A stretch of DNA of 64,000 nucleotides from Streptomyces sp. NBC_00878 (GTDB taxonomy: Bacteria > Actinomycetota > Actinomycetes > Streptomycetales > Streptomycetaceae): contig NZ_JAPEOK010000001.1 of the NCBI RefSeq assembly GCF_026341515.1, positions 7,626,001 to 7,690,000 on the forward strand. The letters are read 5' to 3'. Below are positions 9,567 through 64,000 of this stretch, piece by piece. Both the position numbers and the translations under genes were made by a program. A model generated the notes under the pieces. It was not told the origin of the DNA. It ran no database searches and saw only the letters and a list, made by a program, of their open reading frames with translations. The number at the start of each line of letters is the position of its first letter. Position 1 is the first letter of the stretch.

Positions 9567-9640
9567 TCAGGGGCTGCCTTTAGGGGGCTGCTTTTAGGGG
9601 CGCGAGGAACTGCGCGATCAGCCACAACGAACCCGCGGTT
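9567..9640. repeat. Intergenic repeat, short type, with triplicated leader
   Basis: TTAGGGGCGCGAGGAACTGC then GCGATCAGCCACAACGAACC (9594-9640) is a clear copy of the short repeat type. The 28 bp in front are three variants of GGGGCTGCTTTTA in tandem. The element separates the convergent GH3 and SGNH genes and may act as a terminator for both. Confidence 0.75.
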
Positions 9641-9661
9641 TCAAAACGGCGCCCATCCCCC

Positions 9662-41639: not shown

Positions 41640-42779
41640 ATGCGAGATGTGGCACGACGTGGGACGCGGTGCGCGGTGGGGCTCATGACGGGAGCCGCCG
41701 CGGCCGCCGTCGAGCTGCTCTTCACCCTTCTCTCCGGCCTCGCCCTGTTACCCGTACTGGCTTGGCCGCGTGGCCGTCAGGCCGTGCTCCGGCCCGTCTT
41801 CGCGGGGGCGCGGCGACTGACGGAGTTCGAGCGCGGACGGCTCAGGACCTGGACGAACGTGTCGATCTCTCCCGCGTACGAGGACGCGGGAGCCCTGCGC
41901 TACATCGCGTGCCGCTGGACGCTCGGAGTTCTGGGCGGCGTCGTGATGCTTTCGGTGGCGATCGGTCTCGCGTACAGCACATACTGGATGTACGGCTGGA
42001 TGTTCTCGGACATCGAGCATCCCGGGGCGATAGCTCTCGTGGCTCTCGGCGGGCTGTTTCTGCTCTTCCTCGCCGTGCAGGGGATATTCGGAGTCGCCGA
42101 GCTGGAGCGGCAGTTGGCCCGGCACGTCCTCGGGCCCAGCCACCAGGAGGAGTTGGAGCGGCGGATCGTGGAACTGGCCGCGAGCCGCGCCGCGGTGGTG
42201 GACGCCGTGGACGACGAACGCCGCCGCATCGAGCGGGACCTCCACGACGGTGTACAGCAGCGGCTCGTCGCCCTCGGCATGCTCCTCGGCCGCGCCCTGC
42301 GCAGCCAGGACACAGAGCGTGCCGACCGGCTGCTCCGCCAGGCCCACGACGAGAGCGGACAGGCATTGGCCGAGCTGCGTGAGGTGGCCTGGCGGATCTA
42401 TCCGACCACGCTGGACGAGGCGGGCCTGCGGGCTGCCCTGGAGACGGTCGCCGAGCGCTCGTCCGTGCCGGTGCGGGTGGAGTACGGGCTGTCCGCCGAG
42501 CCAGGAAAAGCGGCGGCGACCGTCGCGTACTTCGTGGTCTGCGAAGCCGTCACGAACGCGGTCAAACACGCGGCGGCGCGTCGGATCGTCGTCCATCTGT
42601 GGGCAGCGAGCGGTGAGTTGTGCGTGCGGATCGAGGATGACGGCTCGGGCGGCGCGAACCCCATGGGCAGCGGGCTGTTCGGGCTGGCCCGGCGAGTGGA
42701 CGCCCTCGACGGCCGGTTCAGTGTGCTCAGTCCGGTGGGTGGACCCACCGTCATCTCAGCGGAGTTGCCGTGCGTGTGA
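41640..42779 (+). CDS. Sensor histidine kinase, NarL-partner type (HisKA_3)
   Basis: The 379-aa kinase has two N-terminal membrane regions (about 12-42 and 93-150). The phospho-acceptor His202 lies in RDLHDGVQQRL, and an ATPase domain has CEAVTNAVKHA and GSGLFGLARRVDAL. It has no recognisable extracellular sensor domain. It overlaps the response regulator gene by 10 bp, so the two form one unit. The signal is unknown. ATG 41640 is chosen. Confidence 0.92.
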   Translation: MRDVARRGTRCAVGLMTGAAAAAVELLFTLLSGLALLPVLAWPRGRQAVLRPVFAGARRLTEFERGRLRTWTNVSISPAYEDAGALRYIACRWTLGVLGGVVMLSVAIGLAYSTYWMYGWMFSDIEHPGAIALVALGGLFLLFLAVQGIFGVAELERQLARHVLGPSHQEELERRIVELAASRAAVVDAVDDERRRIERDLHDGVQQRLVALGMLLGRALRSQDTERADRLLRQAHDESGQALAELREVAWRIYPTTLDEAGLRAALETVAERSSVPVRVEYGLSAEPGKAAATVAYFVVCEAVTNAVKHAAARRIVVHLWAASGELCVRIEDDGSGGANPMGSGLFGLARRVDALDGRFSVLSPVGGPTVISAELPCV

Positions 42780-43414
42780 TCCTTGCCGAGGACTCGACCC
42801 TGTTGAGAGAAGGCCTCGTACGGCTGCTCGTCGAGGAAGGGCACGAGGTGCTGGCCGCGGTCGGTGATGCCGAGCGGCTGCTGGTGGCCGTCGCCGAGGA
42901 GCGGCCGGACGTGGTGGTGGCGGATGTGCGCATGCCTCCCACGCACACCGACGAGGGGCTGCGTGCGGCCCTGGAGATTCGCGAACGCTGGCCGGGCGTG
43001 GGCGTGTTGGTGCTCTCGCAGTACGTCGAGAAGCGGTACGCGACGGAGTTGCTGACCGGAGACTCGGAGGGGGTCGGTTATCTGCTCAAGGACCGTGTCG
43101 TCCAGGTCGACGAATTCCTCGATGCGTTGGAGAGGGTGAGCCAGGGGAGAGCGGCCTTCGATCCCGAGGTGGTGCGTCAGCTGCTCGGCCGCAGCGGGCG
43201 CGCGGACCTCCTGGACCGACTCACCACGCGAGAGAAGGACGTGCTGGCGGAGATGGCTCAGGGGCATACGAACGCGGCCATCGCGCGACGGATGCACATC
43301 TCCCTCAGCGGAGTCGAGAAACACATCAACGCGATCTTCGACAAGCTCGAACTGACAGGAAGCGAGGGGTACTCCCGCAGAGTGCTGGCCGTACTTCGCT
43401 ATTTGGGGGCCTGA
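42770..43414 (+). CDS. LuxR/NarL-type response regulator
   Basis: The 214-residue regulator has a receiver domain with phospho-acceptor Asp52 (VVVADVRMPP) and Lys in YLLKDRV. The C-terminal LuxR HTH is LTTREKDVLAEMAQGHTNAA with IARRMHISLSGVEKHI. It pairs with the overlapping kinase gene. Confidence 0.93.
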   Translation: MRVILAEDSTLLREGLVRLLVEEGHEVLAAVGDAERLLVAVAEERPDVVVADVRMPPTHTDEGLRAALEIRERWPGVGVLVLSQYVEKRYATELLTGDSEGVGYLLKDRVVQVDEFLDALERVSQGRAAFDPEVVRQLLGRSGRADLLDRLTTREKDVLAEMAQGHTNAAIARRMHISLSGVEKHINAIFDKLELTGSEGYSRRVLAVLRYLGA

Positions 43415-50483: not shown

Positions 50484-50831
50484 TCAGGGGGAGGGGTGGC
50501 CCTCCTCCCCCTGCCATGCGTGCTTGAGGGTCATCCGGGCGTTCACCTTTTCCGCGGTCGTGACCTCCGACCAGAAGCGGTGGCAGGTCACGAAGACCGC
50601 CAGTTCGCGCTCGCGCTCGCGGAGTTTCTCCACCTCCGCCTGTTCGTCGGCCGTCCAGCCGGGGGAGGCGGGGCGCTCCACCTTGCGCCAGCCGTGGTCG
50701 TCACTGAAGCCGTCCAGGGGCTCGACCGACCAGGGGAGCCGCTTCAGGAGGGCCAGAAGCTCGGCCCGGACCTGATGCAGCTCCTCCTGACCGGCCAGGA
50801 GGTCACTCGGGAAGTCATAGGTCGCAGCCAC
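50484..50831 (-). CDS. Conserved hypothetical protein (115 aa)
   Basis: The mostly helical cytosolic protein begins VAATYDFPSDLLAGQEELHQ. A conserved Trp-rich centre (LPWSVEPLDG, GWRKVERP) is followed by a charged helix (ADEQAEVEKLRERERELAVF). Similar small proteins occur in streptomycetes, but I know no function. It is convergent with the Tat-exported protein gene. Confidence 0.7.
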   Translation of the reverse strand: MAATYDFPSDLLAGQEELHQVRAELLALLKRLPWSVEPLDGFSDDHGWRKVERPASPGWTADEQAEVEKLRERERELAVFVTCHRFWSEVTTAEKVNARMTLKHAWQGEEGHPSP

Positions 50832-50908
50832 GCGCTAATGCTACGCCTGTTCGATTTTGGGATGCGAGTTCATCGAGGGACTTCGCGCGAATGTTGTCCC
50901 GTTGTCCC

Positions 50909-50958
50909 GTGCCATCGAAGGTTGATCATTAGTAAGTTCGTGCCATCGAAGTTTGATC
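50909..50958 (+). repeat. Left-end repeats of the Tn7-like element
   Basis: GTGCCATCGAAGGTTGATC (50909-50927) and GTGCCATCGAAGTTTGATC (50940-50958) are direct repeats 31 bp apart, ending just before the tnsA start. Two CCGTTGTCC-like words precede them. Confidence 0.75.
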
Positions 50959-50961
50959 GGT

Positions 50962-51624
50962 ATGGAGTGCGGGTGGTCAGGGGCGGCGGCGGGGCAGCTC
51001 GCGGGTGCGTACGCGGATCCGGATCTTGGTGCGTTTGAGCTGGGGTTCCTGGAGGACGGCGTACAGGTTCGGCGGTCGCTTGCGGCCTGCTGGGGCGTGC
51101 GCTTCGAGCGTGCGGCACCGGTGCGTCCGTTCCGTTGGCCCAGGGGCGGGGAGAGCTTCGCGGGCTGGTACTTCTGCGCGACGACCGGCGGGCACATCGG
51201 CTACGAGTCGTGGCTGGAGCGGGACCGGCTGATCCTGCTGGATGCCGATCCGCGGGTGACGGGGATCGCGTCGCAGCCGTTCTGGCTGCACTGGCACGAC
51301 GGCCAGCGTCGGCGTCGGCATGCTCCCGACTACTTCGTTCGTCTTGCGGACGGGCGGGGCCGGGTGGTGGACGTCCGGGCCGCGGATCGTGTTGATGAGG
51401 CGGCAGCTGAGGCGTTTGCGGCGACGGGGAGAGCCTGCCGGGCGGTGGACTGGGAGTTCGAACGGGCGGGGGTCCCTGATCCGGTGCTGATGGCGAACAT
51501 GCGGTGGCTGTCGCGTTACCGCAGGACACGGTGCCTGCGTCGGTACGTCGCCACTGAGCTGCTGGAGGTCTTCACCGAGCCAGGCCCGTTGCGGCCGGGG
51601 CCGCGAAGGTGGGTGATCCGCTGA
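50962..51624 (+). CDS. tnsA: TnsA-like transposon endonuclease
   Basis: The 220-residue protein of the TnsA N-terminal nuclease family cuts the 5' ends of the transposon in Tn7-type cut-and-paste movement. The restriction-like core is HIGYESWLERDRL (Glu82), RHAPDYFVRLADG (Asp123) and VVDVRAAD. The last position is normally Lys and is Arg139 here. A C-terminal helix-turn-helix-like part (SRYRRTRCLRRYVATELLEV) follows. ATG 50962 lies 4 bp after the end repeat and has no Shine-Dalgarno. TTG 50953 is an alternative. Confidence 0.85.
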   Translation: MECGWSGAAAGQLAGAYADPDLGAFELGFLEDGVQVRRSLAACWGVRFERAAPVRPFRWPRGGESFAGWYFCATTGGHIGYESWLERDRLILLDADPRVTGIASQPFWLHWHDGQRRRRHAPDYFVRLADGRGRVVDVRAADRVDEAAAEAFAATGRACRAVDWEFERAGVPDPVLMANMRWLSRYRRTRCLRRYVATELLEVFTEPGPLRPGPRRWVIR

Positions 51625-51749
51625 TGGTGCTGCCGGTGCTGTTCCATCTGCTGTGGTCCGGCGCCCTGGTGACGGACGTGAGTACGCGGCTGCTGGGTTC
51701 CGACTCCGTGGTCCACGCGGCAGCGAGGGGGCCTCGATGGGACGTCTGA
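51624..51749 (+). CDS. Small ORF between tnsA and tnsB (41 aa)
   Basis: It begins MVLPVLFHLLWSGALVTDVS and ends RGPRWDV. Its ATG overlaps the tnsA stop (TGATG), and its stop lies 12 bp inside the tnsB N-terminal frame. The tight coupling suggests it is translated. It may be a real accessory peptide or only serve re-initiation for tnsB. Confidence 0.5.
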   Translation: MVLPVLFHLLWSGALVTDVSTRLLGSDSVVHAAARGPRWDV

Positions 51750-51992
51750 CTCGGCCGGAGGGCCTCGCTGTCGGGGAACGGGTCCGGTTCGACGGGCAGG
51801 TCCGGCTGGTTCTGGCGGTCTCGGGCAGGTCGGTCACTCTGTCGGACATGGGCGGCACGCCGCGGGCTGTTCCGCCGGCGGTGCTGTTCGCTGGCGAAGG
51901 CTTCGAGGTCGTGGACAGTTCGGGCCGGATGCCGCTCCCGCCCGTGTCCTTGCTCGAGACTCTGCCGCAGGCCGCGTTGGAGAAGGCCCTGT
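51737..51992 (+). pseudogene. tnsB: N-terminal part of tnsB, separated by a frameshift
   Basis: From ATG 51737 the frame reads MGRLTRPEGLAVGERVRFDG and runs about 85 residues (to ALEKAL). This is an N-terminal domain typical of TnsB-like transposases of this group, but it then goes out of frame at a GTGTGTG tract (51991-51997). The continuing protein is in the next frame (WWEGHILEV). A 4-bp TGTG expansion would explain it. Confidence 0.65.
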
Positions 51993-53801
51993 GTGTGGTG
52001 GGAGGGACACATCCTGGAGGTGCTCCACGGGCTGCTGCCGGATGCTGCACCGGGCACGGAGCCGAAGCCGCAGTACGCCCTGTCTCGTTCGCTGACCGCG
52101 CGGGAACGGGCGAAGGCGGTCGAACTCACTGCTGCGGGGCACAAGGTGACCGCGGGCACGGTCGCGAACCGGCGGCGCCGCTACGAGAAGGACGGGGTGA
52201 TGGGGCTCGCCGATCACCGGCCGGTCCGCAAGACGCCGAAGTACGGCACGGTGGATGACGCGGTGGTCGCCGCGATGCGCCAGGCGATCAAAGAGGCGAC
52301 CGACGCCTCGACCCGCACCGGCACGTTCCTGCTCTGGCGGACCGAGCAGATCCTCCAGGCCAGCGAGGACGGCGGGGAGGCGAAGCTGCCCTCGCGTCGC
52401 ACGCTCTACCGGCTGCTGGACAAGCTCACCACCGGCACTCACACGACGGGATCGGCAACGACGCGCAGGTCGCGGGCGCACGGGGCAGCCGCGCCGTTCG
52501 GTGAGCTGCCGGCGTTCGCGCCGGGTGAGGTGATGCAGATCGACTCCACGCCGCTGGATGTGCTGGTGCGCCTGGACGACGGAGTGGCGGGCAAGGTCGA
52601 GCTGACCGGCATGGTCGACGTCGCGACGAGGACGGTGACCGCGGCCGTGCTGCGTCCCACGACGAAGGCGGTCGACGCCAGCGTGCTGCTGGCCCGCACG
52701 GTCACCCCGGAGCTGATGCGGCCGGGCTGGGTCGATGCCCTGCGCATGTCCCGCTCGGTGCTCCCGCACCGCCGGCTGCTGCCCCTGGACGAGCGCCTGG
52801 AGCATGCCGCCGCCCGGCCGGTGATCGTCCCCGAGATGATCGTCTGCGACCACGGCAAGGCGTTCATGTCGCGCAACTTCCTCGCGTCCTGCCGCTTCCT
52901 GCAGATCGATCTCCAGCCCGCGCACAAGGGCTCGCCCTTCGAGAAGGGGCACATCGAGAAGACGCTCGGCTCCGTGGGCACCCTGTTCACCCAGTTCCTG
53001 CCCGGCTTCACCGGCCGCAGCACCGAGCACCGCGGCCGGAACCTGGACAAGGAGCCGTTGTGGTCCCTGCTGGAACTGCAGGAGCTGCTGGACGAGTGGA
53101 TCGTCGCGAAGTGGCAGAACCGCCCGCACGACGGCCTGCGCGACCCGGCCACACCCGACCGGTCGTTCACCCCCAACGAGAAGTACGCCGCGCTCGTCGA
53201 AACCTGCGGCTACGTCCCGGTCGCGCTGTCCGGTGACGACTACGTCGAGCTGCTGCCCTCGCTCTGGCGGGCGGTCAACGACTACGGCATCAAGATCAAG
53301 CGCCGCACCTACGACAGCCCGGCCCTGGCCGGACTGCGGCGCCAGCACTCAGGCGTCAGGGAGAAGAAGGGGTTGTGGGAGGTCCACCACGACCCCTACG
53401 ACGTCGCCCGGATCTGGGTGCGCAACCACCACGTGGGCAGCGGCTGGATCGAGGCCACCTGGAAGCACCTGCACCGGGTTCCGGTCCCCTTCGGCGAACT
53501 GGCCTGGGACCACGCCGCCCAGGGCCTGCCCGAGGCGACCGAGGCGGAGATCGCCGACGCGGTCGCCGCCCTGCTGGCCAGGGCCCACGCAGGCCCCGAC
53601 CGGCCGGCCAAACCGAAACGGGCCGCCCGGGACAAGCGGGTCGCCGCCCGCACCCGCGCCGCCGGCCCCAGCACACCCGCCGCCCCACCCGCGCCCGCGG
53701 CCGCCGACCCAGACGAACCAGGCGAGGACACCGAACCGCTTGCCGAGGTGATCCCCCTGGGACTGTTCAACTCGCTCGAAGATCCATGGAGACGCACGTG
53801 A
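51993..53801 (+). CDS. tnsB: TnsB/TniA-like DDE transposase, catalytic part
   Basis: The 602-residue frame holds two N-terminal HTH regions (LTARERAKAVELTAAGHKVT; KLPSRRTLYRLLDKL). An integrase-type RNase H core carries Asp184 (GEVMQIDSTPLD), Asp286 (MIVCDHGKAF) and Glu322 (EKGHIEKTLG). A Mu-C-type C-terminal barrel and a Pro/Ala-rich tail follow. It joins the 3' transposon ends to target DNA. It opens with GTG at 51993 only because the frame of the upstream part was lost. A ribosomal +1 shift at GTGTGTG could also link the two. Confidence 0.85.
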   Translation: MWWEGHILEVLHGLLPDAAPGTEPKPQYALSRSLTARERAKAVELTAAGHKVTAGTVANRRRRYEKDGVMGLADHRPVRKTPKYGTVDDAVVAAMRQAIKEATDASTRTGTFLLWRTEQILQASEDGGEAKLPSRRTLYRLLDKLTTGTHTTGSATTRRSRAHGAAAPFGELPAFAPGEVMQIDSTPLDVLVRLDDGVAGKVELTGMVDVATRTVTAAVLRPTTKAVDASVLLARTVTPELMRPGWVDALRMSRSVLPHRRLLPLDERLEHAAARPVIVPEMIVCDHGKAFMSRNFLASCRFLQIDLQPAHKGSPFEKGHIEKTLGSVGTLFTQFLPGFTGRSTEHRGRNLDKEPLWSLLELQELLDEWIVAKWQNRPHDGLRDPATPDRSFTPNEKYAALVETCGYVPVALSGDDYVELLPSLWRAVNDYGIKIKRRTYDSPALAGLRRQHSGVREKKGLWEVHHDPYDVARIWVRNHHVGSGWIEATWKHLHRVPVPFGELAWDHAAQGLPEATEAEIADAVAALLARAHAGPDRPAKPKRAARDKRVAARTRAAGPSTPAAPPAPAAADPDEPGEDTEPLAEVIPLGLFNSLEDPWRRT

Positions 53802-54828
53802 TCTCTCCCGGCCACATACCCGACGCCGCCGTGAACACGGCAGACGATCAGGCCGGATGCCAGCTGACCACCCGGCAGGGATGGCGCCGCTTCACCGCCG
53901 AACCTCCCGCCCCGCCGGCGCTGTTGAGCGAGGACGAGTACGAACAGATGGAGCCGCTCCAGCGGGAGCTCTACGACGGCGAACGGCTCGACCACCACGC
54001 CCGACTGCGCGTGGTCGCCACGTCCACGGTCCGGCACACCGTCGCCTGGTCCTGCTCAACAAACACGCGATCAGCGCCCGCCGCGGGCTGATCGTCTCCG
54101 GTCCCGCCGGCACCGGCAAGACCATCGCCATCACCCAGCTCGGGCGAGCCCACGAACTCCTGGACCAGGCCCGGCATCCGACGGTCATCGGCCGGATCCC
54201 GGTCGTCTACATCACGGTCCCGCCCGCCGCGACCGCCCGCATGGTCGCCGCCGAGTTCGCCCGCTTCCTCGGCCTGCCGGTCCGGCGCAGCTCCAACATC
54301 ACCGATCTCATCGAGGCCGTCGTCGGTGTCTGCACCGACACCCGCACCGGTCTGGTCCTGGTCGACGAACTCCACAACATCTCGCTCACCAGCCGCACCG
54401 GCGCGGAAGTCGCCGACACCCTGAAGTACTTCTCCGAGCGGATCCCGGCGACGTTCATCTACGCCGGCATCGACATCGAGCACTCCACCCTGCTGTCGGG
54501 AACCCGCGGGCAGCAGATCGCGGGCCGCTTCACCCTCATCCCCACGGCCCCGTTCCCCTACAACACGGAATGGAAGGGCCTGGTCGCCACGCTGGAGAGC
54601 ACCCTGCTCCTGCACCGACACCAGCCCGGCACCCTCACCAGCCTGGACCGTTACCTGCATGACCGAACCGGCGGCATGATCGGCGCCCTGTCCCACGCCA
54701 TCCGGGGCGCCGCGATCGACGCCATCCTCACCGGCACCGAGACCATCACCAAGAAGTCGCTCGCCGCGGTCCCACTGGACCACTCCGCGCAGTCCTTCTC
54801 CCGCACCGCCACCGGGGCCCGTCGGTGA
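53786..54828 (+). pseudogene. tnsC: TnsC/TniB-like AAA+ ATPase, frameshifted
   Basis: The N-terminal frame from ATG 53786 (METHVISPGHIPD) runs to about 54050 (RVVATSTVRHTV). The protein then continues in another frame with RRLVLLNKHAISARRG, Walker A GPAGTGKT, Walker B LVLVDELHN and the rest to 54828. A small deletion near 54045-54055 explains the break. The intact protein would regulate target choice and activate the transposase. It overlaps the tnsB end (15 bp) and the tniQ start (GTGA). Confidence 0.8.
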
Positions 54829-55469
54829 ACGAGTACTTGCAGATCCCGCTCGCTCCTCTGCCCGTTGACGTCCGCTCCCGGCTCGGTGAGACGACCGTCA
54901 GTTACATCGAGCGCCTCGCGCGAGCCAACCATCTCAAGCCCAGCGAGCTGGTCCGACACCTGGCGCCGCCACCACACAAGACCGGCCACAGGCCAGCCCT
55001 GGTCCGTCTCGCGAAAATCTGCGGCCGTTCGACAGACGTCCTGGCCATCACCCTCGCGGATGCCGAACCGGCGCATCTCCCTGTCTGGACGAAGGACGAC
55101 CTCCGACTCCGGCGCCGCGTCGCCTTGAGGAGTGACGGTTTCGACATGGCAGGGTTGATCAAACAGGACGCCCGCTGGAACAAGGCCGGCCTGCGACAGA
55201 TCGCCAATAGCTGGCAGATCCCGCTCTGGGGCCTCAAGAGGATCCTCAGCCCGCGCTTCCCCGATCCCAACCCCCCGGCACGGGCCTTCATGACGGAGGA
55301 CAACTACCGCAGAATCAAGACCCACTACTCACAGGGTCTGACCGCCACGGAGACATGGCGCTACTTCCTCGACAAGCACGACTCCTGGATTCCCCTGACC
55401 ACCATCACGGCGCTCTACATCACCCTCGCCCGAGAACCTCAGTCAGCTGAATCCAGCGAATATGAGTGA
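54825..55469 (+). CDS. tniQ: TniQ/TnsD-like target-selection protein
   Basis: The 214-aa protein starts VNEYLQIPLAPLPVDVRSRL and contains the TniQ-type N-terminal pattern GETTVSYIERLARANHLKPS. It is followed by LVRLAKICGRSTDVLAITLA and helical DNA-binding segments (TKDDLRLRRRVAL, KAGLRQIANSWQIPLWGLKR). It lacks an obvious zinc finger and is shorter than TnsD. It overlaps tnsC by GTGA. Confidence 0.72.
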   Translation: MNEYLQIPLAPLPVDVRSRLGETTVSYIERLARANHLKPSELVRHLAPPPHKTGHRPALVRLAKICGRSTDVLAITLADAEPAHLPVWTKDDLRLRRRVALRSDGFDMAGLIKQDARWNKAGLRQIANSWQIPLWGLKRILSPRFPDPNPPARAFMTEDNYRRIKTHYSQGLTATETWRYFLDKHDSWIPLTTITALYITLAREPQSAESSEYE

Positions 55470-55488
55470 CTGTGCCGGGCCGCGATAG

Positions 55489-55548
55489 TTGGCACCGTCT
55501 GGCCAAGATTCTTGGCACCTGTAATGATTTGCCGCGTTTGTTGGCACC
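55489..55548 (+). repeat. Three TTGGCACC repeats after tniQ
   Basis: TTGGCACC at 55489-55496, 55512-55519 and 55541-55548, spaced 23 and 29 bp. They are candidates for right-end transposase sites, since the inverted core GTGCCA also occurs at the left end. Confidence 0.65.
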
Positions 55549-55653
55549 GGCGCCATGGCTCAGCGCGTCAGCGAGGCCGGCGCGCATGGGGCCGTAACGG
55601 CGACAGTCTCGTCGCTTGGTTCCTTGCCGCTTCCATGCGACCTTCGGCGATTT

Positions 55654-56514
55654 CTACAGACCGTCCAGTCGCTTGGTCACTGTGTCGAGTGTCGGCCAAG
55701 GAGGACCCTCGCGCAGCAAGCGCAGGAATTCCTCTCCGAATCGCCTCCCATTCGGAAACTGGTCACCAAGCTCCCAACGCCACGCGGCGACCATCGCGAT
55801 AACGAGCTGCCGGCACTCGTCCAGCAGCCCTTGGTCAACGCTTGGGTAGTGCTCGCAGACCGCCTCGGGAACATGGGCGAGATCGAACTCGACGGGTCCA
55901 CGGCAGCACGTCTCAAGGTCGATGAACAACGGACCGTTCTTCGTGCTGAGCACATTGCCCGGATGCGGCTCGCCGTGGAGCAGCTGCTCCACCGCGCCGC
56001 GGTCCTCGATCGCTCGTCGCAGGCTTGCCAGCCTGCCGCTGAGGAACACGCGGTCCGCGTCAGCGAGCTCCGGCGAGCGATCCGGCTCGGCGACAACTTC
56101 TTCCGCCTCCGTGATCCGGTCCGTGAACCTTGGGCTCGGCACATCGACCTTGCGCATGCCGGCGTGCAACTGCTCCAGCGCCTTGGCGTAGTCGACTGGT
56201 GAGGTGTGAGGTGTCACGGGCTCGTAGTAGGTCCACAGCGTCACTGCGAAGCCATCGCGCGCGTACACACGCGGGTCCGCCCGAGGCTCCAAGGGACACA
56301 CCGGGCATCCGACCTCGGCGAGCCGCTGAGCGAGCTCGACTTCGAACTGTGCAACCTCTTGTCCCACAGGGGCGACCCGGGCAAAGACGTTGCATGGCGT
56401 CAGCCGCAGTGCCAGCTTGTTCGAGTTGTGGAGAACGATTGCGTCGTTGGCTGGCAGGTCGAGCGATGCGGCGACCGAAGTCGCAGCCGCGATCGCACGC
56501 GTGACGTCGGTCAT
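55654..56514 (-). CDS. Aminoglycoside phosphotransferase family protein
   Basis: The 286-residue APH/ChoK-fold kinase has the catalytic loop LLHGEPHPGNVL, with Glu in place of the usual Asp in HGD, and the metal-binding IDLETCCRGPVEFDLA. The N-lobe strand ALRLTPCNVFARVAP is short. Such proteins range from antibiotic kinases to house-keeping small-molecule kinases, and resistance cannot be claimed. It lies between two sets of transposon-end-like repeats, so it may be cargo. Confidence 0.82.
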   Translation of the reverse strand: MTDVTRAIAAATSVAASLDLPANDAIVLHNSNKLALRLTPCNVFARVAPVGQEVAQFEVELAQRLAEVGCPVCPLEPRADPRVYARDGFAVTLWTYYEPVTPHTSPVDYAKALEQLHAGMRKVDVPSPRFTDRITEAEEVVAEPDRSPELADADRVFLSGRLASLRRAIEDRGAVEQLLHGEPHPGNVLSTKNGPLFIDLETCCRGPVEFDLAHVPEAVCEHYPSVDQGLLDECRQLVIAMVAAWRWELGDQFPNGRRFGEEFLRLLREGPPWPTLDTVTKRLDGL

Positions 56515-56842
56515 CTCCACCCTCGAATTTTGGCATAGATGAGCGAGGGCAATGCCAACCAGCGTGGCTCGGCACAGTGACCCAGGCCACTCAACCTTCG
56601 ATGGCACACGCTCAATGTTCGTTGTCACAGAACACGGGTGACCTGTCGCAGCGAAGGTTGAGCGTTGTCACCGAAGGTTGGTGACCGCTAGGTTTTCTCA
56701 CCGAAGGTTGAGTGGCTGCTGAGACCTGGTGTCTGGGCGACGGTGGGGGAACCGGTACACGCGTCCCGCAGGTACGAGGGCGACAAAGGCACCCGGTGCG
56801 GCACAACCGGCAGCGTCTGCGGTCGCGTACCGCGTGGCACGC
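56515..56842. other. 328-bp region with transposon-end-like repeats
   Basis: No gene. It carries the repeat array described next. The remaining 56716-56842 has no visible signal and lies 3' of the response regulator gene. Confidence 0.5.
56591..56715. repeat. Cluster of CGAAGGTTGA end repeats
   Basis: One inverted copy TCAACCTTCGATGGCAC (56591-56607) matches the left-end repeat at 50909 over 17 bp. Three direct copies follow: TGTCGCAGCGAAGGTTGAG (56644-56662), TGTCACCGAAGGTTGGTGAC (56666-56685) and TCTCACCGAAGGTTGAGTGG (56696-56715). Spacings are 22 and 30 bp. Confidence 0.75.
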
Positions 56843-57511
56843 CTATCCTCCCGGTGTAACCAGTCCCGTCTCGTACGCGATCACGACCGCCTGGGCCCGG
56901 CTGTTCAGATCCAGTTTGGTCATGGTGCGGTTGAGGTGGGTCTTGACCGTGGCTTCGCTGATGGAGAGCCGGTCGGCGATCTCCGGGTTGGACAGGCCGC
57001 GCGCGATGAGCTTGAGGACTTCGACCTCGCGGGATGTCAACGTGCCGAGGCCCGGCGGGGGTTGGGCAGCGGAGGCGGACCTGGCCTGGTGGGCGAATGC
57101 TTCGACCAGCCGCCGAGTCACGCTGGGCGCGAAGAGCGCGTCGCCGCCCCCGACCGCGGTCACGGCTGCCAGCAGTCGCTCGGGGCCTGAGTCCTTGAGC
57201 AGGAAGCCGGACGCCCCGGCACGCAATGCTCCGTACACGTACTCGTCGAGGTCGAAGGTGGTCAGGACCAGCACCCGGGGCGCGGGGTCGGCCGCGTCCG
57301 CGAGGATGCGCTCGGTGGCCTCGATGCCGTTCATGCCGGGCATGCGGATGTCCATCAGGATCACGTCGGGCCGCATCTTGGCGGCCACCTGCACCGCCTC
57401 CTCGCCGTCGCCCGCCTCTCCGACGACCTCGAAGCCGGGTACGGCGTTGAGGAGACCGACGAGCCCGGCGCGGATGAGGAACTGGTCGTCGACGACGAGG
57501 ACTCTCGTCAT
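56843..57511 (-). CDS. LuxR/NarL-type response regulator
   Basis: The 222-residue protein has a receiver domain with Asp54 (VILMDIRMPGMNG) and FLLKDSG. The LuxR HTH is LTSREVEVLKLIARGLSNPE with IADRLSISEATVKTHL. It is coupled to the kinase gene by ATGA overlap (57508-57511). Likely targets include the divergent lectin gene, where repeated sites are seen. Confidence 0.93.
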   Translation of the reverse strand: MTRVLVVDDQFLIRAGLVGLLNAVPGFEVVGEAGDGEEAVQVAAKMRPDVILMDIRMPGMNGIEATERILADAADPAPRVLVLTTFDLDEYVYGALRAGASGFLLKDSGPERLLAAVTAVGGGDALFAPSVTRRLVEAFAHQARSASAAQPPPGLGTLTSREVEVLKLIARGLSNPEIADRLSISEATVKTHLNRTMTKLDLNSRAQAVVIAYETGLVTPGG

Positions 57512-58674
57512 CTCGTACGCTCCTCTCCCCACCGTGCGCCAGTCGTCGACGTCGGCAGGGTCAGGCTGACCGCGAAGCCCCCCTCGGCGCGTGGGCCGAC
57601 GCTGATCGTCCCGCCGTAGAGCTTGGTGCGCTCCCGCATACCGATCAAGCCGTGTCCGGTACCCGTCGGGACGTTGTCCGAAATCACCTCCTCACCGTCG
57701 TTGGTGACGCTGACCGTCAGGTGGTGCTGCCGGTAGTGCAACCGCACCTGGGCATCGGCGTTGCGGGTGTGTTTGAGGACGTTGGTCAGGGCTTCCTGGA
57801 CGACGCGGTACGCGCACAGCTCGACGCCGGGCGGAAGGGGGCGCACGGTGCCCTCGACGCTCAGTTCGACCAGGACGCCTGCGGCCCGGACGCGTTCGAC
57901 CAGATCGTCGAGGCGGGCCAGGGTCGGCATGGGGGCCGCTGAATCGGAGCCGCCCAGGTCGTTTTCCCGCAGGACGTGGAGCATGCGCCGCAACTCCTCC
58001 AGGGCCTCCGTGCTGGTGTCCTCGATGGTGCTGAGCGCGCCCCGGGCCGTCGCGGTATCGGAGTCGAGGACGAACCGGGCCAGGCCCGCCTGCACCGAGA
58101 TCACCGACATGTGGTGCGCGACCACGTCGTGCAGCTCCCGCGCTATCCGCCCGCGTTCGGCGGCGACCTCACGGCGGGCCCGTTCGGCCTGCTCGAGGCG
58201 CAGCTGCCGGGCGAGTTCGCGGGAGCGGCGGGCCAGCATTCCGAACCACACCAGCACGGCGCAGCACAGCAGCGCCTCGGTCACGGCCAGTCCAGCGGAC
58301 CGGCTGTCGCTGACCACACCGCCGTACACCCATTTGGCGGTCGACACGGCCGCGCAGCCGATGGCGATCCTTGCCGTGCACATCGACGCCACCGTGTACA
58401 GGACGAGCGCAGAGCCGAACACCGACAACAGCGGCCAGTACCCGAGGCTGACGAAGGCGACGCCTGCGCACTGCACGGCTGCGAAGACCGCCAGCGGTGC
58501 CCTGCGCCGCAGGGCGAGGGGCACATGCGCCAGGGCCAGCAGCACATAGGCCCGCGTGTCGAGTTCCGGCCAGCCCCGCGCCACCGACTCCCGTCCCAGC
58601 CGGACGGCCACGCAGACCATGACCAGCGCCATCAACGTGTCGACGACGATCGGCCGGGGCGTCCGCATGCGCAT
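57508..58674 (-). CDS. Sensor histidine kinase (HisKA_3)
   Basis: The 388-aa kinase has an N-terminal block of about five to six membrane segments (residues 10-150) with no extracellular domain, as in DesK-like kinases. The phospho-acceptor is His182 in ARELHDVVAHHMSVISVQAG. The ATPase domain has VVQEALTNVLKHT and GHGLIGMRER. ATG 58674 (MRMRTPRP) is chosen; an open extension to GTG 58713 has no better ribosome site. Confidence 0.9.
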   Translation of the reverse strand: MRMRTPRPIVVDTLMALVMVCVAVRLGRESVARGWPELDTRAYVLLALAHVPLALRRRAPLAVFAAVQCAGVAFVSLGYWPLLSVFGSALVLYTVASMCTARIAIGCAAVSTAKWVYGGVVSDSRSAGLAVTEALLCCAVLVWFGMLARRSRELARQLRLEQAERARREVAAERGRIARELHDVVAHHMSVISVQAGLARFVLDSDTATARGALSTIEDTSTEALEELRRMLHVLRENDLGGSDSAAPMPTLARLDDLVERVRAAGVLVELSVEGTVRPLPPGVELCAYRVVQEALTNVLKHTRNADAQVRLHYRQHHLTVSVTNDGEEVISDNVPTGTGHGLIGMRERTKLYGGTISVGPRAEGGFAVSLTLPTSTTGARWGEERTR

Positions 58675-58710
58675 CGCCGCAGCGTATCGGCGGCACACGT
58701 GCGGCGGCGT

Positions 58711-58762
58711 CAACCTTCCGCGGTACCACGGAAGTTGCCGGAACCACTACCGCGAAAGTTGC
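58711..58762. promoter_or_regulatory. Repeated operator-like sites between kinase and lectin genes
   Basis: TACCACGGAAGTTGC (58724-58738) and TACCGCGAAAGTTGC (58748-58762) are direct repeats 24 bp apart. An inverted relative, CAACCTTCCGCGGTA (58711-58725), overlaps the first to form a near-palindrome. The position between divergent units suits autoregulation by the response regulator. Confidence 0.5.
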
Positions 58763-58946
58763 AGGCTCCGCGTGGCTACCGCGCATGGTGGGGTGGGACT
58801 TCCACCCACCACGGGACGCGGCAGCCACGCCGCCGCCCCTACGGTCATGACACAGCGGCACCGCCCGACCAACGGAGCCGCCACAGCCCGCGGGCTACTC
58901 GGGGGACCCAACGGGGGGACCCAGCCCGCGTCTGGAAGGAGCCAGC

Positions 58947-59465
58947 ATGGCCATACGCAAGCGCATCGCCCTGGCCACGGCCGCCCTCGCCCTGGGCAGC
59001 GGCCTTGCCACCGCAACGCCGGCGCAAGCGGTGACGTATCCCGCCTACGCCGACAAGGCCTATGGGGAGTGTCTCGAGGGCCGCAGTCTTGACACAGGCC
59101 CCCTAGCTTTGTGGCCCTGCGACAATTCTTCGGAGCAGGACTGGGAGGTTGAGTCGCGGCCGCAATCCGGCACGTCGAACGACGTGGTGAAGCTCAGAAA
59201 CATCCGTTACAACCGCTGCCTGGACAGCCACGCCGGTGTCAACAATGACTATTTGTTCAACATCAGCTGCAACACTGGCAACTACCAGCTGTGGGAAGTG
59301 TTCTACAACAGCAACGGCACGCGAACCTTCAAGAGTTGGGGAGCGTGGAGACACCAGGGCCTGCACCTGTGCCTGAGTTCCAACCCGGCCGGAAGGGACT
59401 TTTCCCCGTTGCTGAAGACGTGCAACCGCAACTCGGCTTATCAGCAGTGGACCCGGCGGGTATGA
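58947..59465 (+). CDS. Secreted ricin-type beta-trefoil lectin domain protein
   Basis: The 172-residue protein has a signal peptide ending TPAQA (about residue 28). The rest is one ricin B-type beta-trefoil with Q-x-W-like turns (SSEQDWEVE, NYQLWEVF, AYQQWTRRV) and paired cysteines (C42/C58, others). It should bind sugars outside the cell. There is no catalytic domain. AAGGAG lies 6 nt before the ATG. Confidence 0.88.
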   Translation: MAIRKRIALATAALALGSGLATATPAQAVTYPAYADKAYGECLEGRSLDTGPLALWPCDNSSEQDWEVESRPQSGTSNDVVKLRNIRYNRCLDSHAGVNNDYLFNISCNTGNYQLWEVFYNSNGTRTFKSWGAWRHQGLHLCLSSNPAGRDFSPLLKTCNRNSAYQQWTRRV

Positions 59466-59662
59466 CTGTCCGGCGCTGACGGCCATCCTCGTCGGCCGAC
59501 GGGAGACCGACGGTGCGCGCGGCCGGAAGGGGCCGGCGTGACCATCGGATGCCCCACCTTCCCCCGTGGCGTGCCCCGTCAACCACCCGACGCTGCCGGA
59601 TAACGACGTCACCGTCGCCGCGCGCCAGCGTCCGCAACATAAAAACAAGGAAGGCGATTCTC

Positions 59663-60196
59663 TTGATTCGTAAGGCCATATCTGGCCTGGTGGCCGCTCT
59701 CGCCGTCATCGCGGCGACGCTGCTGGGCACCGCTAGCCCGGCTGTCGCCGAGGTCAGCGGCCCATGGGTGATGCAGCCGTACACAAGTGACCTCTGTATC
59801 CACCCGACCAACTACTCTTCGGCAAGCGGCGTCGTGGTCGAGCAAACCCTCTGCGAGTCCCGCGTGGATCGCGACTGGAACTTCCAGACAATCAACGCGG
59901 GCTACTACCGGATCTCTTACCGCAACGGTGGCAAGTGCCTTGCTGTGAGCGGATCGTCGACCGCCAACTCGGCCAAGATAGTCACGCAGGCGTGCGGTAA
60001 CCCCACGCTCAACGACAATTGGCTGCCGATCAGGAACTTCTCGGCCGGGGATTTGGACTATTACCTGCTGTACAACCGGCACAGCGGCAAGTGCCTGAAC
60101 GTCAAAGGCAACTCGACCGCCATCGGCGGCGATCTGATCCAGTACACCTGCAACACCGCAGCGAACAACGAGTCGTTCACCTGGAACAGGCCGTAA
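59663..60196 (+). CDS. Secreted ricin-type beta-trefoil lectin domain protein, second
   Basis: The 177-aa protein has a signal peptide ending SPAVA (about residue 29) and three trefoil repeats with the classical GKCLAVSG, GKCLNVKGNST and QYTCN motifs. It is closer to the typical RICIN family than its neighbour. It starts with TTG at 59663, supported by AAGGAAGG 7 nt upstream. It probably forms a lectin pair with the preceding gene. Confidence 0.88.
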   Translation: MIRKAISGLVAALAVIAATLLGTASPAVAEVSGPWVMQPYTSDLCIHPTNYSSASGVVVEQTLCESRVDRDWNFQTINAGYYRISYRNGGKCLAVSGSSTANSAKIVTQACGNPTLNDNWLPIRNFSAGDLDYYLLYNRHSGKCLNVKGNSTAIGGDLIQYTCNTAANNESFTWNRP

Positions 60197-60277
60197 GATC
60201 GCCGCGCGACGACCGCGGCCGGTGCTGGCGAGTCGATGCTCGCTGGCCCTCGTTGTCGGGCGGTGGAGAGAGGCCAC

Positions 60278-60410
60278 TCACGCCGTGGTCTCCAGGTCGG
60301 AGCGGCCGCCGTGGTCGGTGACGACGATGTACTCCGCCCGCCGCAGCCCAGGACATGGCCGATCTCGTCTACCGCGCCGCGGTAGACGAAGGACGCCTCG
60401 GGGCCGACGA
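60278..60410 (-). pseudogene. Frameshifted gene fragment
   Basis: On the minus strand one frame reads LVGPEASFVYRGAVDEIGHV. After a shift near 60345 another continues RAEYIVVTDHGGRSDLETTA to a stop at 60278. The two pieces join naturally as the C-terminus of one protein of about 45 residues. No start is present. The family is not recognised. Confidence 0.4.
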
Positions 60411-60430
60411 GACGACGGAATCAGCGACCA

Positions 60431-60504
60431 GTCACTCAACCCCCGGTGAGAATCACTCAACCTTCACTGCGACAGGTCAGCGGGTTTGTTCTGTGCCAGC
60501 GAAC
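60431..60504 (-). repeat. Inverted end repeats, right side of candidate element
   Basis: Two inverted CGAAGGTTGA-type sites, GTCACTCAACCCCCGGTGAG (60431-60450) and TCACTCAACCTTCACTGCGA (60453-60472), are followed by GGTCAGCGGGTTTGTTCTGT. This matches the complement of 56617-56662. Confidence 0.7.
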
Positions 60505-60608
60505 TTGGGTGCGGCTCTTCCTCAGTGAGCTGGTGATGCCGTGCGCCGTTGCCGTGCGTGCGCGGACGGCGGATCGTCGTGTCCTGAGACGTGGTCTTGG
60601 AGGCGGCG

Positions 60609-61244
60609 ATGGTGTCGTGGCTGGAGGAGATCGAGCGGCGGGAGGCGGCTGCCCGGGCCGAGATCAGTGAACTTCGCTTGCGGATGGAGGAGTTGGCTGG
60701 TCGTCTTGCCGAGCGGGAGGCTGTGCTGTCCCGGCTGGAGATCACCCGGGAGACGATGACGGAGATCCTGTCCGGCGAGGGGGCGGTGACGGTGTCCGTG
60801 GACGAGGCCGCGGGGGAAGTCCCGGTGTCGGTGGACCGGAGCGGGGCGGGATCGCCGGTCGGGGTGCGGCTGGTGCCGCAGTGGGAGCCGGGGGTTGAGG
60901 CGGATGTGCTGCCGCGCTCGTACCGGGACGTCGTCGAGGTGATGCAGGACGCGGTGCATCCGATGCCGGCGCATCATTTGTGCGCCGCGCTGGGGCTGTC
61001 GACGGACAAGAACAAGGTGGAGGGGTTCCGTTCGAAGCTGAAACGGCTGGTGGAGCGGGGCTGGCTGGCCGAGGACGAGCCGGGCCTGTTCGCGTGGGGT
61101 GGTGCGCGGAGGGCGGGCGCGGGTGCGCCGGAGCGGGAAGCCGCGGCCGGTGAGCGGCGTCGCGCCGGTGTGGGGCCGGGCTCTCGTCCCTGGCGTCGAT
61201 GGTGCCAACCAGATCGCCACTGTCCGAGGACGAGAGCCCGATGA
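60609..61244 (+). CDS. Coiled-coil / winged-helix protein upstream of the IS transposase
   Basis: The 211-residue protein has an N-terminal coiled coil (VSWLEEIERREAAARAEISE onward to about residue 50). A variable linker and a winged-helix-like domain follow (YRDVVEVMQDAVHPMPAHHL, STDKNKVEGFRSKLKRLVER). Proteins of this shape are frequent near streptomycete insertion sequences. Its stop overlaps the ISKra4 transposase ATG (ATGA), which suggests an operon. The last 20 residues may instead come from IS sequence read through after insertion. Confidence 0.6.
   Translation: MVSWLEEIERREAAARAEISELRLRMEELAGRLAEREAVLSRLEITRETMTEILSGEGAVTVSVDEAAGEVPVSVDRSGAGSPVGVRLVPQWEPGVEADVLPRSYRDVVEVMQDAVHPMPAHHLCAALGLSTDKNKVEGFRSKLKRLVERGWLAEDEPGLFAWGGARRAGAGAPEREAAAGERRRAGVGPGSRPWRRWCQPDRHCPRTRAR
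61178..61239 (+). promoter_or_regulatory. Hairpin just before the IS transposase start
   Basis: GGGCTCTCGTCC (61178-61189) and GGACGAGAGCCC (61228-61239) are perfect 12-bp inverted repeats with a 38-nt loop, ending 1 bp before the ATG. It may limit read-through expression of the transposase, as in other insertion sequences, or be IS end sequence. Confidence 0.45.
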
Positions 61245-62775
61245 ACGCAGCGTATGAAACGGCCGCGGCGGCTGACCCCTTTGCCCGCGTGTTTTCTTCC
61301 CTCACTTCCCTGGCCGCCCGCCTCTCCAGCCCCGAAGCACTCACCGCGACACATGAACAGGCCGAGGCCGACTCGAAGCGGGCTCCCGGGAACTGGGGCG
61401 ACTGCTCCTGCAGGCCCATCTCGAGTGGCGGGCCCGCCACGAGGCAGACCACCTGTCCACCCTCGGTCCGCAGGAGCGGGCTGCGCTCGCCGGCGGCCGG
61501 AGCAGGCTGGAGAAGGGCCACCGGCGGCAACTGGCCACCGTGCTGGGGCCGGTGACCGTGACCCGATGCGCTCTGCGCGGCGCGGGCATGACCAACCTCT
61601 ACCCCGCCGACGCCATGCTGCGCCTGCCCCACGGGCGGCACAGTCTGGGACTGCGCCGCCTCGCGGTCCTCGATGCGGCCCGCGGTTCCTACGACACCGC
61701 GCTGGAAGCAATCGACCGCAGCTGCGGGGGCCGGGTGGCGGGCAAACGCCAGGTGGAGGATCTGGTGCGGGCCGCAGCCGTGGACGTCGCCGCGTTCTAT
61801 ACGGCCCGCACTGCCCACCCGGCCCCGGCCGGGACACTGCTGGTGATCAGTGTCGACCAGAAGGGAATCGTGATGCGCCCGGGCCACTTGCGCGAGGCCA
61901 CCGCGAAGGCCGCCGCCAAGGCCCGGCACGCCTTCCGCACCCGGCTGTCGACCGGAGAGAAGTCCTGCCGCAAAAGGATGGCCACCCTCGCCGTCGTCCA
62001 CGACGCCGAGCCCGCGATCCCCCGCCCGTACGACATCATCGCTCCGCCCGGCGGCCGCACCGGACACCGCACCGTCCGCAAAGGACCCATCGCGCGGGCG
62101 AAATGGCTCACCGCTTCCGTGCGCGAGGACGCCGAAACGGTCATCGCTGCCGCGCTCGACCAGGCCGAGGCCCGCGATCCCGAACACCACCGGACCTGGG
62201 TGGTGCTGGTCGACGGCGCCACCCACCAGCGGGAGTTGATCCAGGCTGAGGCCGCCCGCCGCAATGTCACGGTCCATGTCGTCCTCGACATCGTTCACGT
62301 GATCGAGAAGTTGTGGGCGGCCTCGCGGTGTTTCCACACCGCCACCGATCCCGCCACCGAGGACTGGGTCGGTGCGAAGGCCGCCCGGATCCTGGCCGGC
62401 GACGCCCCCGGCGCTGCCCGCGACATCCGCGCCGAAGCCGACCGCCACCGCCTCAGCGACGACCAGCGCGCCGCTGCTGACAAAGCGTGCCGTTACCTCG
62501 AGAACAACGCCGGCTTCGTCCACTACGACCAGGCCCTGGCAGCGGGCTGGCCGATCGCCAGCGGCGCCGTCGAAGGAGCAGCACGCCATCTGGTCGCCGA
62601 CAGACTCGACATCACCGGCAGCAGGTGGACCGTCCCCGGCGCCGAAGCCGTCCTCACCCTCCGCACCGTCATCAGCAACGGCGACTTCCCCGACTGCTGG
62701 ATCTTCCACACGCAGCAAGAGCACGAACAGCTCCATCCCTCACCCGACCAGCACATATACGCACTTCAAGCCTGA
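61241..62775 (+). pseudogene. ISKra4-type transposase, frameshifted
   Basis: The N-terminus from ATG 61241 (MNAAYETAAAADPFARVFSS) runs to about 61371 (QAEAD). The protein then continues in another frame (LEAGSRELGRLLLQAHLEWR) to the stop at 62773-62775, with ISKra4-like segments VISVDQKGIVMRP, WVVLVDGATHQRELI and DIVHVIEKLWAAS. A single-base loss in GACCTCGAA explains the break. Matching CTGTCCGAG / CTCGGACAG words at 61220 and 62791 may mark the IS ends. About 510 aa would be full length. Confidence 0.8.
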
Positions 62776-63057
62776 CGCGGGAACTCACTCGGACAGAGCC
62801 GCGCCCGAAGAGGAAGGGGCGGGGCGGGCGTACGGACGCGCCTCAGGGGATCGGGTGCCGGGGGCTCGCGCGTCGGCGGGCCTCCGCGCGTCTCCGTCTA
62901 CCCACCGCGATCTGACTCCTCTTGTCAATCTGGGTGAAATGGCATACCCATGGAACGGGGTTTTCACTGGAAATGACGAAGACGTGAGTATCTGCTGTGA
63001 AGGAGGCTTTTCCTGGTAGCCGTCCACCACGGAGACGGCCATCGGGAGGGAGAACAG
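62776..63057. other. 282-bp region after the IS transposase
   Basis: The first 30 bp include the possible right IS end (CACTCGGACAG). The rest is non-coding leader for the next gene and contains the promoter listed separately. Confidence 0.4.
62922..62950 (+). promoter_or_regulatory. Probable promoter of the small secreted protein gene
   Basis: TTGTCA (62922-62927), a 17-bp spacer and TACCCA (62945-62950). The leader to the ATG at 63058 would be about 100 nt. Confidence 0.45.
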
Positions 63058-63453
63058 ATGAGGCTACAGATAACCCGGCTGCGCGGGGCCATGCTGGCCG
63101 TTGTCGCTCTGGTCTGCGGGCTTCTGCTCCAGGTCTGTATGGCAGGGGTCGCTAGCGCCGCGGGCACTGCCCAGGCACCGGCTACGGCGGCTGAAGTGTC
63201 GGCTTCGCCTTCGTCGGACGTGTCCGCCGCCTATTTGTCCTGTACGGTTCCGTCCGGCTACACCTACACCTCGGTTTCGAACACCACGACCTGCTCAACC
63301 AGCGGTTTTGCCCCGCTCTATAACGTGGTGCTGCCCAGGACAGGCCTGTGGGCCTGCACTGTCCCACGGGGCTTCACTTACACCGCAATCTCGAGCACCA
63401 TCGTCTGCTCCACCAGCGGACTCGGCACCAGTTACCTCCTCCGGGCGGTCTGA
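63058..63453 (+). CDS. Small secreted protein with an internal duplication
   Basis: The 131-residue protein has a signal peptide (residues 1-35, hydrophobic AMLAVVALVCGLLLQ, ending ASAAG). The mature part holds two copies of a 22-residue motif, CTVPSGYTYTSVSNTTTCST (62-81) and CTVPRGFTYTAISSTIVCST (100-119). Each has two Cys 17 residues apart that could form a disulfide. Spacing between copies is 38. I do not recognise the family. GGGAGGGAG precedes the ATG, so the gene looks well expressed. Confidence 0.75.
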   Translation: MRLQITRLRGAMLAVVALVCGLLLQVCMAGVASAAGTAQAPATAAEVSASPSSDVSAAYLSCTVPSGYTYTSVSNTTTCSTSGFAPLYNVVLPRTGLWACTVPRGFTYTAISSTIVCSTSGLGTSYLLRAV

Positions 63454-63612
63454 GGCCAACCCACCCTGACCTGCGGGTGGTCGGGACCGTCGTCAAGGGA
63501 CGGAGCGCCGGGCCTTTCACCGGCCGCACGACCCCAGCCGGGGACAGCGCGGCCCTTGCAAGACGCGATGTGCCCCGCACTGCGGGGCACATCAACGTTC
63601 TTCGGCGGTCGT

Positions 63613-64000
63613 CTACCAGCGCATGCCGAGCTGGTCGAGGTCTGCGCGGCGTTGGGGGGTGAGCCTGGCCGCCCGGCGGCGGGTGTTGTCGCGGAGGCCG
63701 CCGAGTTCGATCTCTGCCTGTCCACGTGCTCGACGTGCTTTCGGGGCACCGTCAGGTGGCCCTCACGGCATGGAACTGCCGGGCGGCGGCGAGGTTGGCC
63801 GCCCACTTGTCGCCCTGGGTGCGTTTGGCGGGCTGTTCGTCCTCGCCTGCCGGTTGCAGCCCAAGGGCACTGTCGAGGAGCCACTGCTGGGCGGGCAGGA
63901 GCTTGTCCCACCCGAGCCGCTGAGCGGTCGCCCACGCCCCGAGATCCTCGCCCTCAGCAGCGGCGCCCCGGCGGGTGCTTCCTCGCAGTCAGAGGCGCGC
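63613..64000 (-). pseudogene. Decayed helicase-associated-domain protein, C-terminal part
   Basis: Read on the minus strand, the pieces GEDLGAWATAQRLGWDKLLP, AKRTQGDKWAANLAAARQFH, then EGHLTVPRKHVEHVD, then DNTRRRAARLTPQRRADLDQ LGMRW to the TAG at 63613 make up the helicase-associated domain found in large streptomycete DEAD/DEAH-type proteins. They lie in different frames. Single-base deletions near 63758 and 63722 and an in-frame TGA near 63990 break the gene. The 5' part lies beyond the window. Confidence 0.75.

Follow-up and report, generated by a model that had tools for sequence, protein, structure and literature searches.

In the stretch of Streptomyces sp. NBC_00878 DNA analysed here (64,000 nucleotides of contig NZ_JAPEOK010000001.1, positions 7,626,001 to 7,690,000; hereafter, the window), we have identified a transposase-less Tn7-like element, E2, which spans 3841 bp from tip to tip (56639..60479) and carries a sensor kinase/regulator pair together with two secreted lectins. 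As no match to tnsA, tnsB, tnsC or tniQ was found inside it, E2 does not qualify as an autonomous Tn7-like transposon, which has a transposase of its own. We consider it very probable that E2 is a non-autonomous Tn7-like transposon, the ends of which are read in trans by TnsA+TnsB of the clade found in genomes G277 and G290 (G- and L-numbers are our handles for genomes and loci). In kind, E2 most likely belongs to a known superfamily as one of its non-autonomous members; what seem unusual are the apparent frequency of such cassettes in the genus and the signs of their movement in blocks.

The boundaries of E2 were drawn with a profile of the family's ends and by homology with Streptomyces flaveus. 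At the left, the A (tnsA-type) end on the forward strand (56639..56714) is composed of a 13-bp tip and three sites spaced by 20 and 30 bp, namely CGAAGGTTGA (56652..56661), CGAAGGTTGG with one mismatch (56672..56681), and CGAAGGTTGA again (56702..56711). At the right, the B end on the reverse strand (60434..60479) has a tip of the same 13-bp type followed by two sites spaced by 21 bp: TGAAGGTTGA with one mismatch (60457..60466, starting at 60466) and CGGGGGTTGA with two mismatches (60436..60445, starting at 60445). E2 is hence bounded by two inverted multi-site ends of two different kinds, three-site at the left and two-site at the right, and its tips scored 37.7 and 36.1 bits with a profile built without the window's own ends. 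In the window, CGAAGGTTGA occurs eight times with at most one mismatch, where 2.66 occurrences are expected and none of 100 shuffles reached eight. When the genome of NBC_00878 was searched with the left-end DNA of E2, furthermore, four matches were obtained at E <= 0.001, and an exact 23-base end pattern matched at three places; all of these fall within the array that E2 forms with its neighbours E1, E3 and E4.

These results allow an earlier reading of the same DNA, made from its letters only (the sequence-only reading), to be refined. The opposed multi-site repeats that it described are present a few bases from where it had placed them (direct at 56652, 56672 and 56702; inverted at 60466 and 60445), and its spacing of 30 bp holds, while the two spacings that it gave as 22 bp are in fact 20 bp at the left and 21 bp at the right. 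It had also recognized an element here; its limits, 56591..60504, need to be moved to 56639-60479. The 45-bp inverted repeats that it reported do exist but mix the ends of three elements and are not E2's own ends: the inner 24 bp come from E2's own tip and first site, and what lies outside these belongs to E1 (its right end) and E3 (its left end). Also, the site at 56591-56600 is part of E1 and lies outside E2. Repeats scattered over the genome irrespective of gene blocks, which the same reading had named as an outcome that would speak against a mobile element, were not observed, the ends being confined in this genome to the array.

The ends obey one grammar, which is also that of other elements in the genus. 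Every end has a 13-bp tip of the type TGNYCTGTSRCAN followed directly by a site CGAANNTTGA, and two kinds can be distinguished: namely, A ends with three sites spaced by 20 and 30 bp, and B ends with two sites spaced by 20 or 21 bp. A profile of the tip plus the first site (24 bp), made from 23 ends, matched 156 times with a score of at least 16 bits in 66 sequences (1.13 Mb) that had been picked because they bear ends and in which inner sites also count as matches, against a single match in the same sequences reversed. The array continues past the window, and the next 60 kb of chromosome on the right were thus examined; with the profile rebuilt without the window's sequences, 12 matches at 14 bits or more were found in 124 kb including the window (none in the reversed control), all of them between 50.9 and 65.6 kb. 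The exact 23-base pattern is present in 36 of 291 genus genomes, and its backwards control in none. Furthermore, the end beside tnsA is three-site in four (G277, G290, G204, and NBC_00841) of the five tns-bearing elements that show perfect duplications outside the NBC_00878 genome; in the fifth, ITFR-21, the third site is not scored by the profile.

Target duplications in the family suggest that such ends delimit mobile units. From 115 ends, we formed all opposed pairs within 20 kb, which gave 45 pairs, some sharing an end; 20 of them are flanked by a perfect 5-bp duplication, in comparison with 2% when the flanks were re-paired at random. No match to tnsA, tnsB, tnsC or tniQ lies inside 14 of the 20 duplicated pairs, and the remaining six include the pair formed by the outer ends of E1 and E3, the tns genes inside which are broken. 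A less biased set was obtained from 41 of the 44 places of the exact 23-base pattern, the three in the NBC_00878 genome being left out: at 16 of these places (13 elements), a second end was found with which the first shares a perfect 5-bp duplication, and none of tnsA, tnsB and tnsC lies inside at 12 of them (10 elements). Also, none of these three genes is seen in 31 of the 37 regions read, which are about 10 to 18 kb long and in some cases lie close to the end of a contig, so that more distant partners and tns genes fall outside the view. As a side observation, the family includes a 478-bp MITE-like element in G147 (L068 6426-6903), which has a perfect duplication (GTCGC) and no tns match. 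In G147, a pair of ends that are both two-site has a perfect duplication, and A and B ends therefore need not pair one with the other. An element in G067 (L069 7767-9083, duplication CAGGA) had been considered as a pair of two A ends and was dropped, since its end at 7767 has only two clear sites.

Which transposase would read the ends of E2 is suggested by its left end. A search of the genome collection with 38 letters of this end matched three records. In the first, Streptomyces sp. WAC 04229 (G277), the end adjoins tnsA and is identical to that of E2 at 74 of 76 bases; tnsA, tnsB and tnsC of this element are open (a single stop, at residue 323 of 324, occurs in the tnsC stretch), tniQ matches are present, and the element is flanked by a perfect duplication (TCAGG). 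E2 accordingly shares its left end with a relative that encodes TnsA, TnsB, TnsC and TniQ. The G277 TnsA belongs to the NCBIfam family NF033179 (TnsA_like_Actin), and the solved structure closest in sequence to the G277 TnsB is that of Tn6677 TnsB (E = 2.5e-4). In the second record, Streptomyces chumphonensis KK1-2, the end is again beside tnsA, and only the start of tnsB was matched within 8 kb. TnsB proteins of the family fall into two clades, which are 70 to 74% identical to each other (some compared as protein pieces): one comprises TnsB of G277 and of G290 (90% identity), from elements with TCGCAG-type tips, and the other comprises TnsB of E1 and of an NBC_00841 plasmid element (about 90% identity), from elements with tips of the other type. 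The tips of E2 are of the G277/G290 type and not of the E1 type. Given this and the near identity of its left end with that of G277, E1 is not the best candidate for the motor of E2 and probably does not serve as such. The sequence-only reading had suggested that E2 and the frameshifted tns module next door may be of one family; the common superfamily stands, but E1 is a member of a sister clade, and it is the G277/G290 clade that has the transposase matching E2. In the mechanism that we propose, TnsB of this clade would bind the CGAANNTTGA sites in the ends of E2 and bring the three-site and two-site ends together, after which the transposase complex would cut at the TG...CA tips and insert E2 elsewhere, duplicating 5 bp of the target. 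Encoding no transposition genes, E2 would depend on an enzyme supplied in trans.

The third record, S. flaveus JCM 3035, shows that part of E2 has been in two places. The homology covers the A end, regulator and kinase (91.8% over 2225 bp, 56637 to 58861) and begins two bases before the left tip of E2; apart from it, 84 kb around the window and 18 kb of S. flaveus have no more than two matches in common, of 51 and 156 bp. The claim of Tn7-type left and right ends is supported most strongly by this homology, which sets in at the left tip while the DNA around it is unrelated, and by the perfect 5-bp duplications of relatives. As for the claim that sensing and lectin secretion are mobile, the left end and sensor pair do have a second location, whereas the lectins are seen only here and are presumed to be mobile. 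A whole transposase-less member of the family is found in two genomes, furthermore: a 3294-bp element in G115 and G203 (311-3606 and 6935-10230, respectively) is 98.3% identical from tip to tip within 2 bp and is the only match between the two regions. It has four reading frames in G115 and no tns gene, and its flanks are perfect (CGGGG) in G203 and agree at three of five bases in G115, where another element abuts. An element with GNAT and APH genes was dropped as evidence of movement; its plasmid copy (L082) and that in G075 (L148) have their flanks in common and are 99.3% identical over 13.7 kb, which makes them one locus, and its pair of ends has no duplication (three of five bases).

The extent of sequence shared with relatives also bears on the origin of E2. 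An internal deletion in an autonomous element, the tns genes of which were then replaced by cargo, could have produced E2, and deletion derivatives do exist in the family: an element in G116 (L064 8333-11036) keeps both ends of the G290 type without the stretch of tnsB and tnsC. Only about 76 bp at the left and 46 bp at the right, however, are common to E2 and its tns-bearing relatives as judged by eye, and no tns remnant was found inside E2; we thus rate this origin as rather unlikely.

Between its ends, E2 carries the block that the sequence-only reading had described, and both its lack of tns matches and its Pfam domains agree with that description. On the reverse strand are a response regulator (56843..57532) with a receiver and a LuxR-type DNA-binding domain (PF00072 and PF00196) and a sensor histidine kinase (57508..58713; HisKA_3, HATPase_c, and DUF7134). 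On the forward strand are two ricin-B lectins, both with a signal-peptide-like start: lectin 1 (58947..59465, 172 amino acids; PF00652; signal peptide judged by eye) and lectin 2 (59663..60196, 177 amino acids from the TTG at 59663, a start chosen by eye), the longest frame of which starts at 59513 and is the frame in which PF14200 and PF00652 were found. Just inside the right end, 60328-60409 has short DNA matches of about 80-88% in several genus genomes; these may mark the remains of a gene and could hint at the way in which the right end and the cargo came together. Elsewhere in the window (41955-43357) lies a second kinase/regulator pair, distantly related to that of E2 (30 and 35% identity).

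The region between kinase and lectin 1 (58714..58860) resembles regions beside the same type of kinase elsewhere, which suggests a promoter role; aligned with four such regions, it gives a mean column identity of 55% over the five. One of the four is upstream of the secreted-protein gene in the S. flaveus copy, and the other three are in G141, where one precedes the kinase and two precede genes for putative secreted proteins. In G141 (L077 6290-10590), a sensor pair of the E2 type is thus accompanied by three promoter-like regions, possibly a small regulon. Its regulator and kinase are 87% and 77% identical to those of E2, respectively, and no ends were found in the 18 kb read. The sequence-only reading had regarded the same genes without the repeats as an outcome that would tell against it, and this is half the case, as a related sensor pair does stand without ends in G141; it looks like an ordinary chromosomal source of such cargo. 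We infer that the gene adjoining the kinase/regulator pair may be under its control and that the secreted product may be exchangeable; the cargo of E2 would then be a self-contained unit of sensing and secretion, made up of the kinase, the regulator, a divergent promoter, a secreted lectin and a second lectin. A search for an operator was uninformative, since a 15-base word of the gap between kinase and lectin occurs once in the NBC_00878 genome (in E2) and its backwards control also once. It might further be supposed that the repeats themselves are binding sites of the regulator and have nothing to do with transposition, given that they flank the regulator gene and that a related word, GGAAGGTTGA, is present at 58710 near the kinase promoter. 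In other genomes, however, these repeats delimit tns operons as well as genes of unrelated kinds and are accompanied by 5-bp duplications, and the related pair in G141 has no ends in the region read. Already contradicted by these relatives, a purely regulatory role of the repeats is extremely improbable.

Several observations weigh against the reading of E2 as a non-autonomous transposon. Its flanks, ACGGG at the left (56634..56638, the A being the last base of E1) and GCGGG at the right (60480..60484), agree at only four of five bases, and about 5% of random pairs reach four or five. In the S. flaveus copy, no recognizable right end was found by profile and inspection in the 11 kb read, and past the divergent promoter this copy has another small secreted protein, not the lectins. 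Lectin DNA elsewhere is represented by short matches: 229 of 291 genomes have some match when two candidates are scored per genome, and the longest outside the NBC_00878 genome among the matches listed is about 140 bp. The idea that the two lectins occur elsewhere as a unit was dropped, only short DNA matches being among those listed. All of 199 genomes have some match to E2 DNA, nearly all across the regulator and kinase genes; this pair is common in the genus, and its presence alone thus proves nothing. No plasmid record covers at least 80% of E2, the best reaching 37% over kinase and regulator, and no site without E2 was found. Finally, the best TnsB matches in the NBC_00878 genome beyond E1 are only 35% and 29% identical. 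With no close TnsB other than that of the broken E1, E2 is probably silent in this genome.

E2 stands in an array, and its neighbours raise the question of how the array was assembled. E1 (50903..56634) is a Tn7-like element of the sister clade with tnsA, tnsB, tnsC and tniQ on the forward strand (50953..55469, detected as tblastn pieces in different frames and by Pfam) and an APH-family phosphotransferase as cargo on the reverse strand (55654..56514; PF01636 on the longer frame, start chosen by eye). Its left end has two sites 31 bp apart and lacks the outermost site of an A end, and its right B end is intact. The frame changes inside each of tnsA, tnsB and tnsC (50953-54828) could be decay or sequencing error; the NBC_00841 relative (L078) also shifts frame in tnsA. 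On the other side of E2, E3 extends from 60487 to 65606, and the outer part of its left B end (60487..60506, forward strand) is cut by an ISKra4-type insertion of 3700 bp (60507..64000 and on to 64206, L006 1-206), which is flanked by a 9-bp duplication, AGCGAACTT. Part of the transposase sequence of this insertion is present twice, at about 62.6 kb and 64.0 kb, and the insertion seems to be more than one copy. A worn element, E4 (65620 to 67634, flanks ACTGT/ACTGA), resembles elements in G024 and G126 and was placed on that basis.

The flanks of the array suggest that E1, E2 and E3 might have moved together as a 14.7-kb composite by the outer ends at 50903 and 65606. The 5-mer at the left of E1, CCCGT (50898..50902), also follows the right tip of E3, 1.6 kb past the window, as a perfect duplication, whereas the flanks of E1 alone agree at three of five bases and those of E3 alone at one. 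The E1 tip at 50903 is supported by homology with host DNA of G128, which ends at 50904, and the same pattern recurs in G177 (L142), where the outer pair is perfect (CGAGA/CGAGA) and the inner pairs agree at one and none of five bases. On the other hand, six end pairs were compared in the array, and a chance match then has odds of about 1 in 8; a short tandem copy is present in the left flank, and the match may in part be of local origin; and homology with S. flaveus begins at the tip of E2 itself, E1 being absent from that copy, with the flanks of E2 itself agreeing at four of five bases. No second copy of E1-E2-E3 was found by searching 286 genomes for the E3 body only, which has a full-length match in the NBC_00878 genome alone and none above about 300 bp elsewhere among the matches listed; lacking a relative of useful length, E3 also led to no strain with E1-E3 but without E2. 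Movement as a composite is therefore somewhat doubtful in our view, while it is possible that neighbouring cassettes are moved by their outer ends. This composite and an insertion of E2 on its own are compatible, as E2 may have jumped into the junction of E1 and E3 before the block moved.

Alternatively, the four elements could have stacked at a hotspot, an intergenic point beside a conserved gene for 115 amino acids (50484-50831), as their position side by side would suggest. Six relatives are syntenic with this chromosome up to 50887-50904 and again from 73154-73178, and in G109 only 30 bp separate the two aligned parts. In the five other relatives, however, a gap of 0.7 to 8.8 kb contains no end by profile at 13 bits or more, which argues for a general variable site. 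With E2 set aside, the 6 bp between E1 and E3 (CGGGTT) differ from CCCGT, as repeated use of one exact point would not produce, and simple stacking of E2 in one 5-bp target was rejected for this reason. Abutment was also dropped as a rule: 12 end-to-end junctions were seen, but in regions mostly picked with the E1-E2 junction as the query, and an abutting end occurs in only 2 of the 41 places of the less biased set. Stacking at a hotspot thus has a low probability. The variable chromosomal site itself (50484-50831 to 73154, continued into L006) is nearly empty in G109 and holds other DNA in the five relatives; the G109 locus shows the whole island to be extra and says nothing on E2 alone.

Returning to E2 as a cassette mobilized in trans, we tentatively extend this reading to the family, with more doubt than conviction: many or most of the Streptomyces copies might be transposase-less cassettes with interchangeable ends, the outermost of which pair even when of the same kind, so that neighbours with unrelated cargo would be shuffled and moved as blocks by transposases from elsewhere, a form of cassette assembly without an integrase. 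The kinds of cargo named for the cassettes are a sensor with secreted lectins, transporters and enzymes. The exact grammar of the ends, in any case, lets small cassettes of this family be found in Streptomyces genomes. If the cassettes are moved in trans, traits of sensing and secretion could pass from one species to another in units whose mobility would go unnoticed from gene content alone, and a transposase that matches their ends can be named.

Among known systems, E2 is closest to the Tn7-like transposons (TnsA+TnsB, TnsC and TniQ) of the actinobacterial branch, with tns-bearing relatives of which, on Streptomyces plasmids and genomes, it shares the tips, the sites and, at the level of the family, the 5-bp duplications; it differs in having no tns gene and short ends (about 76 and 46 bp). 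Defective Tn402-like class 1 integrons have terminal repeats of the TniA/TniB type around their cargo, lack working transposition genes and are moved in trans. E2 is similar in that transposon terminal repeats enclose cargo without working transposition genes, but its end sequences are different, and no integrase is among the E2 genes found, no search having been aimed at one. MITEs, mobile insertion cassettes and passenger-carrying transporter insertion sequences (ISs) are likewise non-autonomous, use the ends of a full-length relative and are mostly derived from ISs; the family described here makes the same use of a relative's ends, down to the 478 bp of the G147 element, but its ends are Tn7-like, multi-site and of two kinds. 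As in composite transposons, finally, the outer ends of neighbouring elements can share one duplication (CCCGT in G000 and CGAGA in G177), whereas the units between them are Tn7-like cassettes and not two copies of an IS.

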